DNA of 34,897 nt from Lentisphaerota bacterium. Lineage in GTDB: Bacteria; Verrucomicrobiota; Lentisphaeria; Victivallales; Victivallaceae. The notes below the pieces were generated by a model. It did not search any database, had not been told where the DNA came from, and worked only from the letters and a program-made list of their open reading frames with translations. Shown in pieces: positions 935-28,057 of this stretch (positions are counted from its first letter, which is position 1; each line of letters begins with the position of its first letter). The stretch lies in contig SUWG01000027.1 of the NCBI GenBank assembly GCA_015061625.1, positions 1 through 34,897 of the forward strand, read 5' to 3'. The translations under genes were made by a program, and so were the position numbers.

Positions 935-956
935 AAAAAAAATGGCGGAGAGAGAG
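935..956 (-). repeat. attR-like copy of tRNA-Ser 3' end
   Basis: Twenty-two bases identical to 1349-1370: eight A then TGGCGGAGAGAGAG on the plus strand, which is the tRNA-Ser acceptor 3' half, CCA and T8 tail when read on the minus strand. The sequence diverges on both sides. Confidence 0.7.
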
Positions 957-1160
957 TCACTCTCCCAAATGTTGCCATTTAGCTTGTTTTACGCTCAAAG
1001 TCCTTGATTATCAGAAGTCCATTCCCGTATTTTTCGAAAATATATGCGTTTTTGAAACCTGATAAAAAAGGTTCTTTTTGGCACTTCTCATCATTCGTAA
1101 TGAAGTATTGCAATCCGGAACTCTCATTTTTCATTTTTACATCATATGAGCGAAGCGAAT

Positions 1161-1332
1161 GCTTCATATTTGGAGTGAAACGGAAAATGCTTCATAGCAG
1201 AATGAAATGGAGCTGCTTCATCGTCAGGCGTTTTTTATGAAGCATTTTGCGGCGATGCCGCAAAATATGAAGCGCATCTTGCGATGCATGAAGCGGCACT
1301 GCGTGCCATGAAGCAAAGCCTGACGGCTTCAT
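1161..1332. repeat. Array of perfect hairpins separated by ATGAAGC
   Basis: Four copies of ATGAAGC (1237, 1267, 1288, 1308) and four of its complement GCTTCAT (1161, 1189, 1215, 1326). Between consecutive ATGAAGC copies lie perfect stem-loops of different sequence: ATTTTGCGGC/GCCGCAAAAT (1244-1266, 3-nt loop), GCATC/GATGC (1274-1287), GGCAC/GTGCC (1295-1307) and AAGCC/GGCTT (1316-1329). The stems vary while the heptamer is invariant, so it is not a CRISPR array or a simple tandem repeat. A related pair of hairpins follows tRNA-Pro at 24891-24927. Confidence 0.85.
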
Positions 1333-1333
1333 T

Positions 1334-1362
1334 CCGCCATTTTTTTGCAAAAAAAATGGCGG
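1334..1362. repeat. Palindrome over tRNA-Ser 3' terminus
   Basis: Perfect 13-bp arms, CCGCCATTTTTTT (1334-1346) and AAAAAAATGGCGG (1350-1362), around a 3-nt centre. The right arm is the 3' end of tRNA-Ser read on the plus strand. The left arm is an inverted copy of it outside the gene. It could act as the tRNA terminator or as inverted core sites for an integrase. Confidence 0.8.
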
Positions 1363-1370
1363 AGAGAGAG
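1349..1370 (-). repeat. attL-like core within tRNA-Ser 3' end
   Basis: Tail and 3' terminus of tRNA-Ser, identical over 22 bp to 935-956. It also forms the tRNA-side arm of the palindrome at 1334-1362. Confidence 0.7.
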
Positions 1371-1446
1371 GGATTTGAACCCTCGGTGAGGTTGCCCCCA
1401 CAGCGATTTTCGAGACCGCCGCCTTAGACCACTCAGCCATCTCTCC
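1357..1446 (-). tRNA. tRNA-Ser(CGA)
   Basis: A 90-nt class II tRNA with encoded CCA. The acceptor GGAGAGA pairs with TCTCTCC, the discriminator is G, the anticodon stem GCGGT/ATCGC encloses loop CTCGAAA with anticodon CGA (reads UCG), a long variable arm is present, and the T stem-loop is GAGGG-TTCAAAT-CCCTC. It lies downstream of the STAS gene on the same strand but has its own promoter. Confidence 0.97.
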
Positions 1447-2021: not shown

Positions 2022-3809
2022 TTATTTGGTCGCCGCTTCGCCGATGACCGCCTTGATCCGGCGGACTCCACGGCTGGAACTTTCCTCTTTCAGAATTTTG
2101 AACGCCACCAAATCTCCGGTGTTTTCTGCATGAGGCCCGCCGCAAATCTCTTTGCTGACGTCTCCCATAGTGTAAACTTTGACCACTTCGCCGTATTTAT
2201 TGCCGAAAAGTCCCATCGCTCCGGCGGCTCTGGCTTCATCCACACTCATTTCTTCACAGATAACCGGCAGTTTGCGGGCAATGGCATCATTGACCAATGC
2301 GGCAACTTCCTGTATCTGCTCCGGAGTCATCTTATCCGGATGGGAAAAGTCAAAACGCAAACGTTCCGCAGTAATATTGGAACCGCGCTGCTCAACATGA
2401 GTTCCCAGAACTTTACGCAACGCCGCATGAAGCAAGTGCGTGGCACTATGCAACTTCGCCGTCTCCTCGGAGTGATCGGCCAGACCGCCTTTGAACTTCT
2501 GCTCCGCACCGGCTCTGGACAATTCCTGATGTTTGGCATACGCCGCCTGGAAACCATCGACATCCACTTCAAAGCCCTGCTCTTTAGCCATTTCCACGGT
2601 CAACTCAAGCGGAAATCCGTAAGTTTCATACAAGTTAAAGGCATTCTTGCCGCTGATAACTTTTTTGGTGATATGAGCCGGAACCCGGTCGATAAGTTTC
2701 TGGAATTCTTTGGTTCCATGCTCCAAGGCGGCGGCAAACTGCTTTTCTTCACGCTCAAGTTCACTGGTAATGATTTCAGCATTATTCTGCAATTCCGGAT
2801 AGAATTCACCCCACTGCTCAATAACTTTTTCAGCGATGCGGGAGGCAAACTCGGTAGTGATACCGATTTTGCGGCCTTCCCGGATGGCACGGCGGATCAA
2901 GCGGCGCAACACATAGGGCTGATCCACCCGGCCCGGAGTAATACCGTCACCGATGATGAATGTCGCCGCCCGCAGGTGATCGACGATGATACGCTCACTG
3001 GAAGTGCGTTCATTGGCCGGAATGCCCGGCACACCGCGGATGGCATCCAATTCAGCAAACAATGAAGCGAAAACTTCCGTTTCATAGCAGCTGGGTTTGC
3101 CTTGCAATACCGCCGTGATACGCTCAAGGCCCATACCGGTATCCACGTTGCGCTGTGCCAGAGGCTCAAATTTGCCCTCGGCATTTTTGTTGTACTGCAT
3201 GAAAACGTCGTTCCATATCTCCACCCACAACTTATTTGACGGATCGAAAACTTCCGGAGCCGGTGCTTCACCAGTCCAATAAAACATTTCAGTATCCGGC
3301 CCGCAGGGACCGGTAGTTCCCGCCGGGCCCCACCAATTGTCTTTCTTGCCCAGTTTGGCAATACGTTCAGCCGGGATACCCAGATTGTGCCAGATATTCC
3401 ACGCTTCTTCATCAAAAGGACAATCCTCGTCACCGGCAAACACCGTCACCGCCAGTTGAGAAAGCGGAATACCCAGTTCTTTGGTCAGAAAGTTGAAACT
3501 GAAGTTGATCGCCTCTTCCTTGAAATAATCGCCCAGCGACCAGTTGCCCAGCATTTCAAAGAAGGTCAGATGCACTGCGTCACCGACTTCATCGATATCT
3601 CCGGTACGGATACACTTCTGGCAGTCGGTCAATCTGCGGCCCGCCGGATGTTTCGCGCCCTGTAAATAGGGAACCAGAGGATGCATTCCCGCCGTGGTGA
3701 ATAAACAGGTCGGGTCATTATCCGGAATCAGCGAAGCACTCTTGATTTCCGCATGGCCGTTGGCTTTGAAAAACTCAATGTACTTTCTTCTCAATTCATT
3801 AGCAGTCAT
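2022..3809 (-). CDS. alaS: Alanyl-tRNA synthetase, short form lacking C-Ala domain
   Basis: Charges tRNA-Ala with alanine and clears mischarged Ser/Gly. The class II catalytic core is clear near the N-terminus (RRKYIEFFKANGH; LFTTAGMHPLVPYL; FFEMLGNWSLGDYF; NVDTGMGLERI). The editing domain follows, with zinc-binding HSATH (H454, H458) and CGGPH (C556, H560) motifs intact. The protein ends at 595 aa, right after the editing domain; the usual bacterial enzyme is about 870 aa and carries a coiled-coil plus C-Ala (DHHA1-type) domain. The next gene is a STAS protein, so the missing part is not a frameshifted neighbour. The ATG start has a GGAG sequence about 12 nt upstream and a promoter at 3851-3879. 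The only synthetase in the window; presumably essential. Confidence 0.95.
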   Translation of the reverse strand: MTANELRRKYIEFFKANGHAEIKSASLIPDNDPTCLFTTAGMHPLVPYLQGAKHPAGRRLTDCQKCIRTGDIDEVGDAVHLTFFEMLGNWSLGDYFKEEAINFSFNFLTKELGIPLSQLAVTVFAGDEDCPFDEEAWNIWHNLGIPAERIAKLGKKDNWWGPAGTTGPCGPDTEMFYWTGEAPAPEVFDPSNKLWVEIWNDVFMQYNKNAEGKFEPLAQRNVDTGMGLERITAVLQGKPSCYETEVFASLFAELDAIRGVPGIPANERTSSERIIVDHLRAATFIIGDGITPGRVDQPYVLRRLIRRAIREGRKIGITTEFASRIAEKVIEQWGEFYPELQNNAEIITSELEREEKQFAAALEHGTKEFQKLIDRVPAHITKKVISGKNAFNLYETYGFPLELTVEMAKEQGFEVDVDGFQAAYAKHQELSRAGAEQKFKGGLADHSEETAKLHSATHLLHAALRKVLGTHVEQRGSNITAERLRFDFSHPDKMTPEQIQEVAALVNDAIARKLPVICEEMSVDEARAAGAMGLFGNKYGEVVKVYTMGDVSKEICGGPHAENTGDLVAFKILKEESSSRGVRRIKAVIGEAATK

Positions 3810-24787: not shown

Positions 24788-24865
24788 CGGGGTGTGGCTC
24801 AGTCTGGCTAGAGCGCTGCGTTCGGGACGCAGAGGCCGGAGGTTCAAATCCTCTCACCCCGACCA
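24788..24865 (+). tRNA. tRNA-Pro(CGG)
   Basis: A 78-nt tRNA with encoded CCA. Acceptor CGGGGTG pairs with CACCCCG, discriminator A. The anticodon stem CTGCG/CGCAG encloses TTCGGGA with anticodon CGG (reads CCG). The T loop is TTCAAAT. Its 3' end is duplicated at 28029-28057, so the gene hosts an integrated element and is kept intact by it. Confidence 0.97.
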
Positions 24866-24875
24866 TTTTTTTTGC
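24847..24875 (+). repeat. attL core (tRNA-Pro 3' end)
   Basis: 29 bp, identical to 28029-28057: the 3' part of the T stem, acceptor strand, CCA, eight T and GC. Confidence 0.88.
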
Positions 24876-24927
24876 AAAAAAATGGTCAACGAAGCCGTCA
24901 GGCTTCGCTTCGTGCGGCGACAGCCGC
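24861..24927. repeat. Palindrome over tRNA-Pro 3' end plus two hairpins
   Basis: 12-bp arms GACCATTTTTTT (24861-24872) and AAAAAAATGGTC (24876-24887) around TGC. Two perfect stem-loops follow: GAAGCC-GTCA-GGCTTC (24891-24906) and GCGGC-GACA-GCCGC (24914-24927), separated by GCTTCGT. The organisation and the GCCGTCAGGCTT core match the array beside tRNA-Ser. Confidence 0.85.
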
Positions 24928-24990
24928 TCTTCTCTTAAAAAACGGAGTTTGTTCTTCACATCTTCACCTGTCTTGAATTCTGCCTTGAAG

Positions 24991-25010
24991 TGGACCACAC
25001 ACTGGACCAC
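24991..25010 (+). repeat. Paired GGACCAC motif, left end
   Basis: TGGACCAC at 24991 and 25003, 12 bp apart. The same pair with the same spacing occurs near the right end (27945, 27957). Possible integrase arm-binding sites or remains of a duplicated end. Confidence 0.5.
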
Positions 25011-25022
25011 ACCCAAAGGAAA

Positions 25023-25421
25023 ATGTGTTTCATGGCAGCAGAAATCCCGAATCTCGTCAAGCGTAATGGCATCTATTACTTCCGGTGTCGTATTCCTTCA
25101 ATTCTCACTAACGGTCGTGCCCGTGAGGTGAAAATCTCCCTTAAAACCGGCAATTTGACTTCTGACCGCCTTGATGTTATAGTGGAAGTGTCAGATTACT
25201 CACGGAGAGTAATCGCAGAATCACTTGAAACTTACAACAAAGGAGGTGCAAACGACATGAATATTGTCACCGAAATCCGAAACAGAATAACTCAATACAT
25301 CAATACCAAATGGCTGACCCGGAAATGGAATTCACCATCATCGGAGGTGACTATTACCCCTTCAGCTTCCGCAACGACTATCTGTGCAAACACAACAGCA
25401 TTTTTGAAGACGACGGCATAA
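25023..25421 (+). pseudogene. Truncated tyrosine integrase N-terminus
   Basis: A 132-codon ORF. Residues about 7-55 (IPNLVKRNGIYYFRCRIPSI then VKISLKTGNL) match the start of phage-type tyrosine recombinases with a DUF6538-like N-terminal module (YYFRRRVP, then L-K-T). The core-binding and catalytic domains with the R...HxxR...Y residues are missing: after about residue 75 similarity ends, and a strong ribosome-binding site for another ORF lies inside. ATG at 25023 has AAAGGA 2 nt upstream. It sits directly inside the attL end, the normal integrase position. It is therefore a remnant of the gene that inserted the element. Confidence 0.65.
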
Positions 25422-25643: not shown

Positions 25644-26534
25644 AGGAATATTGATATAAAATTTGAACTCAAAGATTACCATAGAAATGTTTCAGACCAG
25701 GAACTGATTCAAGATGTACAAGATGTTGCAAAAAGCTTAGGGAAAGACACTCTAGCCGGTTCAGAATATTCACTACATGGAAAATATAATCATGCGACAC
25801 TTCAACGAAGATTTGGTTCTTGGAAAAAAGTGTTACAATTATGCAATCTGCAACTCAAAGGACATAATTTTAGATGTAACTTTTCAAATGAAGAAATGAT
25901 AGCTGATTTAAAAAGAGTTGCGAATATCGTAAATGTAGATTCACCCACACAAGAACACTATAACCGACACGGAATGTACCATAGTGTGACGTTGTGTAGA
26001 AAATATGGTTCTTGGAATAAAGTCCTTTCGTTTGCAGGAATGGAATTAAATCTCAGGCACAATATTTCAGATGAGGAGATGTTTGAAGAAATAGAACGGA
26101 TATGGATTATCCTAGGAAAGCAACCTACTGCGACCGATATAAAGAGTGGGATTTCTAAATATTCACTTGCTAGTTATGTCAGGCGCTTTGGTGGTTGGCG
26201 AAAAGCCTTAGAAGCATTTGTTGGCTTCATTAATTCAGATGTTCTTACTGAAGATAATAGTGATGAGCAAAATATCCACCAAGATGCATGTGACCATTAT
26301 AAAAAAAATGCGATGCACAAAACATCCAGAGACATAAATTTGAGATTAAGGTTTAAAGTGTTGCAGCGAGATAATTTTAAATGTTGTGCCTGTGGAGCAT
26401 CTCCGGCAAAAGATGTTTCGGTAGAATTGCACGTTGACCATATTCTGCCGTGGTCAAAAGGCGGCGAAACCGTTTTTGAAAACTTGCAAACATTATGTTC
26501 CAAGTGCAATTTAGGCAAAAGCGATATGGAATAG
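25644..26534 (+). CDS. Repeat-containing HNH endonuclease, start uncertain
   Basis: At least 296 codons. Three homing-endonuclease-associated-like repeats are visible, each with S[DN][EQ]E, a variable part and an RRFG(S/G)W(K/R)KxL close: VSDQELIQDV...RRFGSWKKVL, FSNEEMIADL...RKYGSWNKVL and ISDEEMFEEI...RRFGGWRKAL. A C-terminal HNH nuclease follows (CCACG, HVDHILPWSKGG, NLQTLCSKCN), metal-binding and catalytic residues intact. The reading frame is open only after a TAG at 25641. No ATG, GTG or TTG lies between that stop and the first repeat; an ATG at 25578 is in the same frame but on the far side of TAG. The gene may have lost its start, or use a rare start (ATT 25650, ATA 25656). GTG at 25830 would remove repeat one. 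Confidence 0.75.
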   Translation, partial: RNIDIKFELKDYHRNVSDQELIQDVQDVAKSLGKDTLAGSEYSLHGKYNHATLQRRFGSWKKVLQLCNLQLKGHNFRCNFSNEEMIADLKRVANIVNVDSPTQEHYNRHGMYHSVTLCRKYGSWNKVLSFAGMELNLRHNISDEEMFEEIERIWIILGKQPTATDIKSGISKYSLASYVRRFGGWRKALEAFVGFINSDVLTEDNSDEQNIHQDACDHYKKNAMHKTSRDINLRLRFKVLQRDNFKCCACGASPAKDVSVELHVDHILPWSKGGETVFENLQTLCSKCNLGKSDME

Positions 26535-26559: not shown

Positions 26560-27702
26560 CTAAAATTTTAATGAATCCATATACCGATTATAGCAGAACA
26601 GCCGATTGCGTTTATTGCCGGTGGTTTCTTCGATGATGTTGATTTCCAGAAGATAATTCAGCATTTTACCGATGGTGGCATTGGTGAGTCCGGTCAGTTC
26701 TTTCAGTTTGGCGATGTCGGCTATCGGGTGACGAAGCATTGCCTGATGCACCGCCAAGGCTGAAGTTGCGGCTCTGCCAAGCGTGGCAATCTTTGCTCTG
26801 TCACTTTCAATTTGCTGGTGCAGATTCAAAATGATTTCATTGCTCTCTTTTGCCGTTTCGATAACTGCTTCCAAAAAGAAATCCAGCCAGCGTTCCCAGT
26901 CTCCGTTTTCACGGATGCCATTCAGCAAATCGTAGTAGTATTGACGGTGGCTTTTGAAATAGTAGCTCAAGTACAAAAGCGGCTGTTTCAACATTCCTCC
27001 GTTGCACAACAGTAAAGTAATCAGGAAACGCCCGACTCTGCCATTTCCGTCGAGGAACGGATGTATCGTTTCAAACTGAACGTGACTCAATGCTGCTTTT
27101 ACAAGAAGCGGAGTGTTTTCATCGTGCAGAAACTTTTCCAGTTCTCCCATGCAGCGTACTGCGTCTTCCGGCGGAGGCGGCACAAAAAACGCATTACCCG
27201 GATGGGTTCCCCCTATCCAGTTCTGACTGTGACGGAATTCTCCCGGATTTTTACCGCTGCCCCGACCTTTGGCAAGCAATTCAGCATGGATTTCCCGGAG
27301 CAAACGCAATGAAAGCGGAAATCCCTCTTCTAAACGCTTCAAGCCGTAAGTCATTGCCGCAACATAATTGCTGACTTCCTGAACATCATCAATGGGAACT
27401 CCCGGTTTTTCCTTGAGTTCAAACAAAAGCAAGTCAGAAAGCGAAGACTGCGTACCTTCAATTTGCGAAGACAGTACCGCTTCTTTTCGGATAAACATAT
27501 AGAGGAATATTCCAACATCCGGGAGCAGATTCGCTGAACCATCAAGTTTGCCAAGCAAAAAAGCTGCTTCATCCAGCTTTTTCTGCAGTTCTCCCGTAAT
27601 CTCCAATGCCGGAAACGGCGGCAACGGATTGGGGATAAAGGCTTTTACCGTTTCCCCGACCGTACTGACTGTTTCATAACGTCCTTGCAGCCCCCGTTTC
27701 AT
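26560..27702 (-). CDS. Fic-domain protein (AMPylase-type)
   Basis: A 380-aa Fic/DOC protein that would transfer AMP or a similar group to target hydroxyls. The N-terminal inhibitory helix is visible as SSQIEGTQSS, so the enzyme is probably self-inhibited (class II). The catalytic motif HPFLDGNGRVGRF is intact (His about 205). The C-terminus (about 315-380) is a winged-helix-like domain (IADIAKLKELTGLTNATIGKML). ATG at 27702 has GGAGAGG 5 nt upstream; an upstream in-frame start at 27729 lacks such support. It is convergent with the HNH gene, and inside the integrated element, so it is cargo. No separate antitoxin is adjacent. A promoter and two competing stem-loops lie upstream. Confidence 0.92.
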   Translation of the reverse strand: MKRGLQGRYETVSTVGETVKAFIPNPLPPFPALEITGELQKKLDEAAFLLGKLDGSANLLPDVGIFLYMFIRKEAVLSSQIEGTQSSLSDLLLFELKEKPGVPIDDVQEVSNYVAAMTYGLKRLEEGFPLSLRLLREIHAELLAKGRGSGKNPGEFRHSQNWIGGTHPGNAFFVPPPPEDAVRCMGELEKFLHDENTPLLVKAALSHVQFETIHPFLDGNGRVGRFLITLLLCNGGMLKQPLLYLSYYFKSHRQYYYDLLNGIRENGDWERWLDFFLEAVIETAKESNEIILNLHQQIESDRAKIATLGRAATSALAVHQAMLRHPIADIAKLKELTGLTNATIGKMLNYLLEINIIEETTGNKRNRLFCYNRYMDSLKF

Positions 27703-27740
27703 AATCCTCTCCAAATTAAAATAGCACATCGTTTTGTTTT

Positions 27741-28028: not shown

Positions 28029-28057
28029 AATCCTCTCACCCCGACCATTTTTTTTGC
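28029..28057 (+). repeat. attR core copy
   Basis: 29 bp identical to 24847-24875. The bases before it (GCGGG) are unrelated to tRNA-Pro, so this is a 3'-end duplication and not a second tRNA. Confidence 0.88.

Follow-up and report, generated by a model that had tools for sequence, protein, structure and literature searches.

Genomic islands classically lodge at the 3' ends of tRNA genes, and integration there is textbook knowledge. To our knowledge, what an incoming element does to the tRNA 3' trailer has seldom been studied. Among the closest described systems are IMEs and decayed CIMEs, which accrete at tRNA 3' ends (PMC5704250); the accessible part of that account mentions neither a conserved head of several hairpins nor an S23/IVP gene, nor does it describe gene-less units of 0.15-0.4 kb. 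In Methylophilaceae, islands preceded by repeats of the tRNA-Lys end measure 330 bp to 42 kb (PMC10872708), and the tycheposons to which these were compared begin at a tRNA and have a tyrosine recombinase of their own; in the portion of the source available, neither a hairpin module nor an S23/IVP gene is mentioned for either. A further relative is the 23S rRNA IVS, where an S23/IVP-family gene lies by a structured stretch in a stable-RNA gene and which has been called selfish; according to the excerpt consulted (PMC4990558), the family had no known function as of 2016. The units described here share with the IVS the PF05635 gene (at 21 of 26 loci) but not the location inside 23S rRNA: their modules sit at tRNA 3' ends (76 of 104 at a tRNA or tmRNA), the S23/IVP gene has, on our reading, a promoter-like stretch of its own, and many units, both of those in our window included, lack the gene. 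The literature searched, which covers the field in part, yielded no description of the hairpin module or of a pairing between tRNA and S23/IVP gene. We judge that integration at tRNA ends is known and that the hairpin head, its tRNA-specific first hairpin and the S23/IVP partnership are new.

The window, by which we mean the whole stretch of DNA analysed (34,897 nucleotides), contains two such units. The larger follows tRNA-Pro(cgg):

24788..24865, plus strand: tRNA-Pro(cgg), target gene (ARAGORN; Rfam RF00005, 65.6 bits)
24861..24887, plus strand: T8GC-A7 palindrome, with outer arms that pair the five terminal tRNA bases (GACCA/TGGTC; sequence, with similar flank mirroring in relatives)
24888..24990, plus strand: hairpin module of the CTTCAC/GTGAAG sub-type with degenerate linkers (sequence; by-eye comparison with Phe, His and Ser copies)
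24891-24906, plus strand: GAAGCCGTCAGGCTTC hairpin, followed by spacer hairpins and by CTTCAC-AT-CTTCAC near 24953-24967 (sequence)
24990..25421, plus strand: remnant of an integrase N-terminus, DUF6538 domain (PF20172, E 6e-10)
25830..26534, plus strand: HNH endonuclease with homing-endonuclease-associated repeats, cargo (PF18780, PF01844)
26560..27729, minus strand: Fic-domain protein, cargo (PF13784, PF02661)
28029..28057, plus strand: right-hand direct repeat of the tRNA-Pro 3' end, 29 nt, putative attR (100% identical to 24847-24875; repeat search)

The 29-nt unit at 24847-24875 consists of the tRNA-Pro 3' end plus T8GC, and between the repeats lie the module, the DUF6538 domain, the HNH protein and the Fic protein, ~3.2 kb in all. 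A profile search of the window gave no match to PF00589, and the DUF6538 remnant, a domain that we take to be an integrase N-terminus, is the sole integrase trace in this element. The second unit measures 414 bp, contains no integrase gene and follows tRNA-Ser(cga) on the other strand:

1357..1446, minus strand: tRNA-Ser(cga), second target gene (ARAGORN; Rfam)
1333..1363, minus strand: palindrome TCCGCCAT8GC-A7TGGCGGA, extending seven bases into tRNA-Ser (sequence, flank comparison)
1139..1332, minus strand: complete module of the GCTTCAT/ATGAAGC sub-type (sequence, comparison, pairing tests, RNA fold)
936..1092, minus strand: right end of the 414-bp element; shares homology with an integrase island's right end on contig C44 of the window's genome (blastn; alignment)
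935..956, minus strand: 22-nt direct repeat of the tRNA-Ser 3' end, then the empty-site flank of the sister species (sequence, locus comparison)

Here the repeated tRNA end reads CTCTCTCTCCGCCAT8 and recurs 414 bp downstream. The Ser module has four GCTTCAT linkers with palindromic spacers, a closing stem CGTCAGGC/GCCTGACG and then ATGAAGC-spacer units (~1139-1221). Both tRNA-end repeats and this inverted half (ATGAAGC-spacer-ATGAAGC) go beyond the first-pass annotation, as does the observation that module heads are carried by elements differing in size and content.

That annotation had proposed that the order after tRNA-Pro (T-run palindrome, hairpin, further hairpin, then a TAAAAAACG block) repeats the order after tRNA-Ser. 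With the tRNAs left out, the two 3' flanks align over ~50 nt with a score of 69, far above chance (1000 dinucleotide shuffles: mean 16.5, maximum 26), which bears out the common sequence of tRNA, T-run palindrome and GAAGCCGTCAGGCTTY hairpin. Nor is the likeness limited to the T/A run: once the palindrome is removed too, the score is 38, against a shuffle mean of 14.4 and a maximum of 28. Palindrome and GAAGCCGTCAGGCTTY hairpin are thus shared, but we could not confirm the TAAAAAACG block as an equivalent part, and its recurrence looks coincidental: as we read the sequence, in the Ser copy (AAAAAACGCCTGACG) the block contains one side, the 3' arm, of a long-range stem, whereas in the Pro copy (TTAAAAAACGGAGTTTGTT) it occupies the spacer-hairpin position of other copies. 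The 12-mer GCCGTCAGGCTT alone was rejected as a marker: the genome has four exact copies, two of which lie in 3-kb stretches without a tRNA.

A STAS-domain gene adjoins tRNA-Ser(cga) and has matches in 30 of the 34 genus genomes; the tRNA lies alongside at eight of these 30 loci, the window's own included. Two of them (G008, G016) are empty sites, in which tRNA-Ser and T8 are followed by ATCCCCCTTTTAATCT..., and in the window this same flank comes right after the 22-nt repeat. The site in G010 resembles an empty one and has a diverged flank. G012, G020 and G021 carry modules of the CTTCAC type, with an S23/IVP-type gene next in G012 and G021; at these loci (L456, L457, L460) the native flank is absent on our reading and no far tRNA-end repeat was found. 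The site in G001 has a third form, truncated where the contig stops. The orthologous sites, some empty and some filled, together with the 22-nt direct repeat and the 414-bp insert establish an insertion at the 3' end of tRNA-Ser(cga), and tRNA-Pro(cgg) likewise carries an insert with a 29-nt direct repeat. As expected of integrative elements, both inserts leave their tRNA intact and are bounded by a direct repeat of its 3' end, and for tRNA-Ser(cga) the empty orthologous site exists in relatives. We found no empty site for tRNA-Pro(cgg) because its neighbourhood, searched with 1.5-kb flanks, was recovered in the window's genome only: across 30 rmlB loci a single tRNA turned up, the window's own.

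Three PF00589 genes were found in the window's genome. On contig C44, an intact tyrosine integrase ORF begins ~0.25 kb behind tRNA-Ser(gct), and ~33 kb on lies a copy of the end of that tRNA with another module directly after it. The stretch ending in this copy agrees with the right end of the 414-bp element at 87% over 159 columns, the last ~21 of which are the tRNA-end repeat itself, and among 431 loci searched it occurs in these two places only. The left end of the 33-kb island has no module, and its link to the 414-bp element is at the right end only. Because the integrase island shares this right end, we favour integrase-driven integration with gene-less copies moved in trans. The best explanation of our observations, and in our view a probable one, is that these are integrative elements, many of them non-autonomous, which insert at tRNA 3' ends, probably by means of tyrosine integrases. 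Suppose the hairpin head is the left end of such an element: on insertion into the tRNA 3' end the tRNA would be rebuilt, with the crossover by a tyrosine integrase presumably falling inside the core formed by tRNA end and T-run, and elements that have an integrase would use it in cis, gene-less ones (the 414-bp copy, for example) being moved in trans. More tentatively, the head may be transcribed as the 3' trailer of the tRNA and work in folded form as RNA, and the linker-spaced hairpins might protect or insulate the tRNA end, or bind a downstream-encoded S23/IVP-type protein. The T-run palindrome was considered as the recombinase crossover and rejected, the gap between its T and A arms varying from 2 to 20 nt or more.

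The module has a regular anatomy. After CCA come T-run GC(C)..(G)GC A-run, an ATGAAGC-C..G hairpin, GCTTCAT linkers, a 3' arm (e.g. GCCTTTTCAG) and ATGAAGC linkers with spacers. GCTTCAT linkers usually number four (69 of 77 parsed modules) and are separated by palindromes of 13-14 nt, at most 44 nt. There are two sub-types, represented in the window by the Pro copy (CTTCAC/GTGAAG linkers) and the Ser copy (GCTTCAT/ATGAAGC). The loop of the first hairpin pairs with a later arm, and a local hairpin competes with the closing stem CTGAAAAGGC/GCCTTTTCAG. Each first hairpin is matched to its own tRNA: it mirrors the flank, odd flanks too (TTTATTTT with AAAAATA), and among 67 unique copies we counted 19, at Ser, Pro, Val and Ala, in which the mirrored stretch also covers five to seven tRNA bases.

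Pairing was tested in the 77 of 107 modules that could be parsed into linkers and spacers, the 30 unparsable ones being left out. Relative to controls in which arms are swapped between modules, and which ignore the relatedness of modules, closing stems pair at 96.8% (swapped mean 66.9%, maximum 75.3%) and left spacers (87 unique) at 96.1% (57.0%, maximum 62.5%), while right spacers (69 unique) pair less well, at 78.0% (58.0%, maximum 63.8%). Folded as RNA together with its tRNA (1130-1446), the Ser copy has z = -5.3, with none of 100 shuffles as good; the corresponding value for the Pro copy and its tRNA is z = -2.7 (2 of 200). Judged by its sequence, then, the module is predicted to fold by co-varying pairing that is kept by compensatory changes. 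Rfam 15 at the gathering threshold returned only tRNA and no module match in the window, and with E up to 1 the window, L187 and L456 gave, beyond tRNA, nothing but a match below threshold to RF04351, antisense to tRNA-Ser.

The protein family PF05635 (23S rRNA IVP/S23) has matches in 20 of the 34 genus genomes, 17 of them over the cut-off, and in none of 14 control genomes. From 29 over-threshold rows, 26 loci entered a linker test, and 21 of these have at least six module linkers within the 600 nt that precede the gene. At 18 of the 21, a same-strand tRNA lies 271-460 nt upstream of the estimated gene start; L520, L538 and L200 have at least eight linkers upstream and no tRNA. Neither linkers nor tRNA were seen at the other five loci (L515, L526, L536, L539 and L516, where the script missed the gene). 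The protein at L456 matches 2RLD (E 5e-31). A general S23/IVP-tRNA link was considered and rejected: relatives occur in 27 plasmid records (PLSDB), and in the four of these that were inspected (Bernardetia, Treponema, Monoglobus and Nostoc) the gene is annotated among ordinary protein genes, PLSDB annotation being without RNA genes.

Downstream, the stop codon of the gene overlaps an ATG (ATGA) in seven of 29 copies with a stop codon, the copies having been found by a short motif, which in at least one case sat in a frameshifted copy. The ORFs that follow are different in five of the seven (114 to at least 489 aa) and short in two (52 and 11 aa); for the five longer ones Pfam named SdpI, DUF4838 and CarboxypepD_reg, the last below cut-off. 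At L456, L519, L520, L521 and L536 the variable ORF starts at the S23/IVP stop and differs from locus to locus. The ATGA junction may possibly mark a fixed point of cargo exchange.

A more far-reaching proposal, which we offer tentatively and hold to be possible if on balance unlikely, is that the elements constitute a distinct class of mobile element in Lentisphaeria. Its constant head, the hairpin module plus the S23/IVP protein, would work as folded RNA within tRNA and tmRNA 3' trailers, its last gene would be variable and begin at the ATGA overlap, and the S23-type protein would bind the module and aid processing or spread, making the class a tRNA counterpart of the rRNA IVS. Here, a four-helix-bundle family familiar from rRNA intervening sequences is coupled to a tRNA-end module, and if this coupling is functional, the natural RNA partner of the S23/IVP family becomes testable.

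Could such elements spread through RNA? Under retro- or IVS-like mobility, a structured RNA and its RNA-binding S23/IVP protein would move through an RNA intermediate into stable-RNA genes, with a reverse transcriptase supplied in trans. Conserved strand pairing and the S23/IVP gene behind linkers in 21 of 26 loci fit this scenario, as does the Coxiella 23S rRNA IVS, which the excerpt of PMC4990558 calls a selfish element encoding S23p and which also resides in a stable-RNA gene; the window's genome even has one RVT_1 gene. However, RVT_1 is found in just eight of the 34 genus genomes, the window's included (three of 14 among those of best quality), and in five of 17 same-genus genomes with linker matches. 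A reverse transcriptase is therefore not present wherever the elements occur, as it should be for a retroelement such as a DGR or group II intron. Moreover, the direct repeats extend past CCA into the T-run, as in DNA recombination, the right end is shared with an integrase island, and both window elements do without the S23/IVP gene. Because reverse transcriptases are so scarce in the genus, we regard an RNA route as less likely than integrase-mediated integration, and improbable in itself.

Integration by integrases also has to be set against simple inheritance. A pattern of three GCTTCAY linkers with gaps of 9-26 nt matches 18 of 40 genomes, namely 17 of 24 from the same genus (the window's own included) and one of 16 others; the reversed pattern gives zero matches in 39 of the 40 and two, versus 40 real ones, in the window's genome. 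Such confinement mainly to one genus, along with the presence of the module at tRNA-His in several species, is what one would expect of a non-mobile host feature, a genus-specific tRNA 3' trailer or regulator passed on vertically. This reading, contradicted by the empty orthologous tRNA-Ser(cga) sites and hard to square with direct repeats, with modules behind tRNA-end copies that lack a tRNA, or with different module sub-types at one orthologous tRNA, strikes us as very unlikely.

A scan of GTDB species genomes with a module pattern containing no tRNA part recovered 103 stretches with 104 modules. Among the 80 of 103 stretches listed by title, 78 are Lentisphaeria, Lentisphaerae or Victivallaceae MAGs, one is from Kiritimatiellae and one from 'Bacillota'; where these 80 titles give a host, it is the herbivore gut. 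A same-strand tRNA or tmRNA lies 0-120 nt upstream of 76 of the 104 modules, against ~0.9% by chance, and the targets comprise 19 tRNA isoacceptors and tmRNA. The remainder lie behind a copied tRNA end (CCA-T; 16), are cut upstream (four) or have neither (eight). We based the count on this set because a larger one, of 107 modules, included loci fetched by a CCA-anchored pattern. Heads behind copied tRNA ends are consistent with serial insertion. One folded module with compensatory changes thus recurs behind 19 isoacceptors and tmRNA, and the initial suggestion of an element family that attaches to tRNA ends is supported by this distribution as well as by the empty sites in G008 and G016 and the direct repeats bounding both window inserts. 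A downstream tRNA-end repeat was found for one of 79 tRNA-adjacent module loci (mean 1.4 kb of downstream sequence), many contigs stopping shortly 3' of the module and so hiding far junctions; a stricter search at 17 relatives' loci found none. A viral origin was considered and rejected: the specific module pattern found no stretch in viral contigs, among which no S23/IVP protein relatives were found either (a looser linker pattern gave at least 120 viral matches, excluded from every count).

Might the module be an ordinary bidirectional terminator or REP-like repeat that lies near tRNAs by accident? The CTTCAC linker does recur in another interspersed repeat, tandem four-hairpin arrays away from tRNAs. 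Yet T-run, hairpin and A-run follow, on our reading, the reverse of the order in an intrinsic terminator, and the excess of modules at tRNAs, the empty sites and the tRNA-end repeats make the idea most unlikely. The separate repeat of CTTCAC-linked hairpins is often tandem (~212 bp apart in C9) and occurs at L138 (5200-6450), L139 (1950-3000), L140, L141, L142 and L143, on contigs C9, C43, C36 and C26 of the window's genome.

Replication slippage or gene conversion of tRNA 3' regions without a site-specific recombinase is hardly credible: near-identical 171-bp tandem units behind tRNA-Lys resemble tandem duplication, but the 414-bp and 3.2-kb inserts are of unrelated content and occupy single sites, and the same module recurs at 19 isoacceptors.

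In the window's genome, eight of 46 tRNAs, tRNA-Ser(cga) of the window among them, have a copy of their own 3' part at most 1.1 kb away (0.12 expected). Short units of ~140-540 bp lie downstream of tRNAs at L067, L078, L089, L091, L093, L094 and L065 (Lys ctt, Met cat, Tyr, Gln ctg, Glu ctc, Glu ttc and Thr cgt, respectively). Mostly they end in a copy of the tRNA 3' part from the T-loop or nearby (TCGA...) and have no hairpin module at their head; several right ends have GGTTGCCGTC..GGCTTCGCC in common, and the units behind tRNA-Lys are four, near-identical, of ~171 bp. At L094 the tRNA-Glu(ttc) array is followed downstream by a linker array and, immediately after the latter, a PAPS-reductase-like gene (2235-3008, minus strand). 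Finally, Val(tac), Pro(tgg), Ser(gga) and the Ser(cga) of G001 (L066, L072, L092, L458) precede one and the same stretch, CTCCTATGAGAGACTATTTGTCAAG..., which reaches the contig end and is probably an unassembled repeated element.
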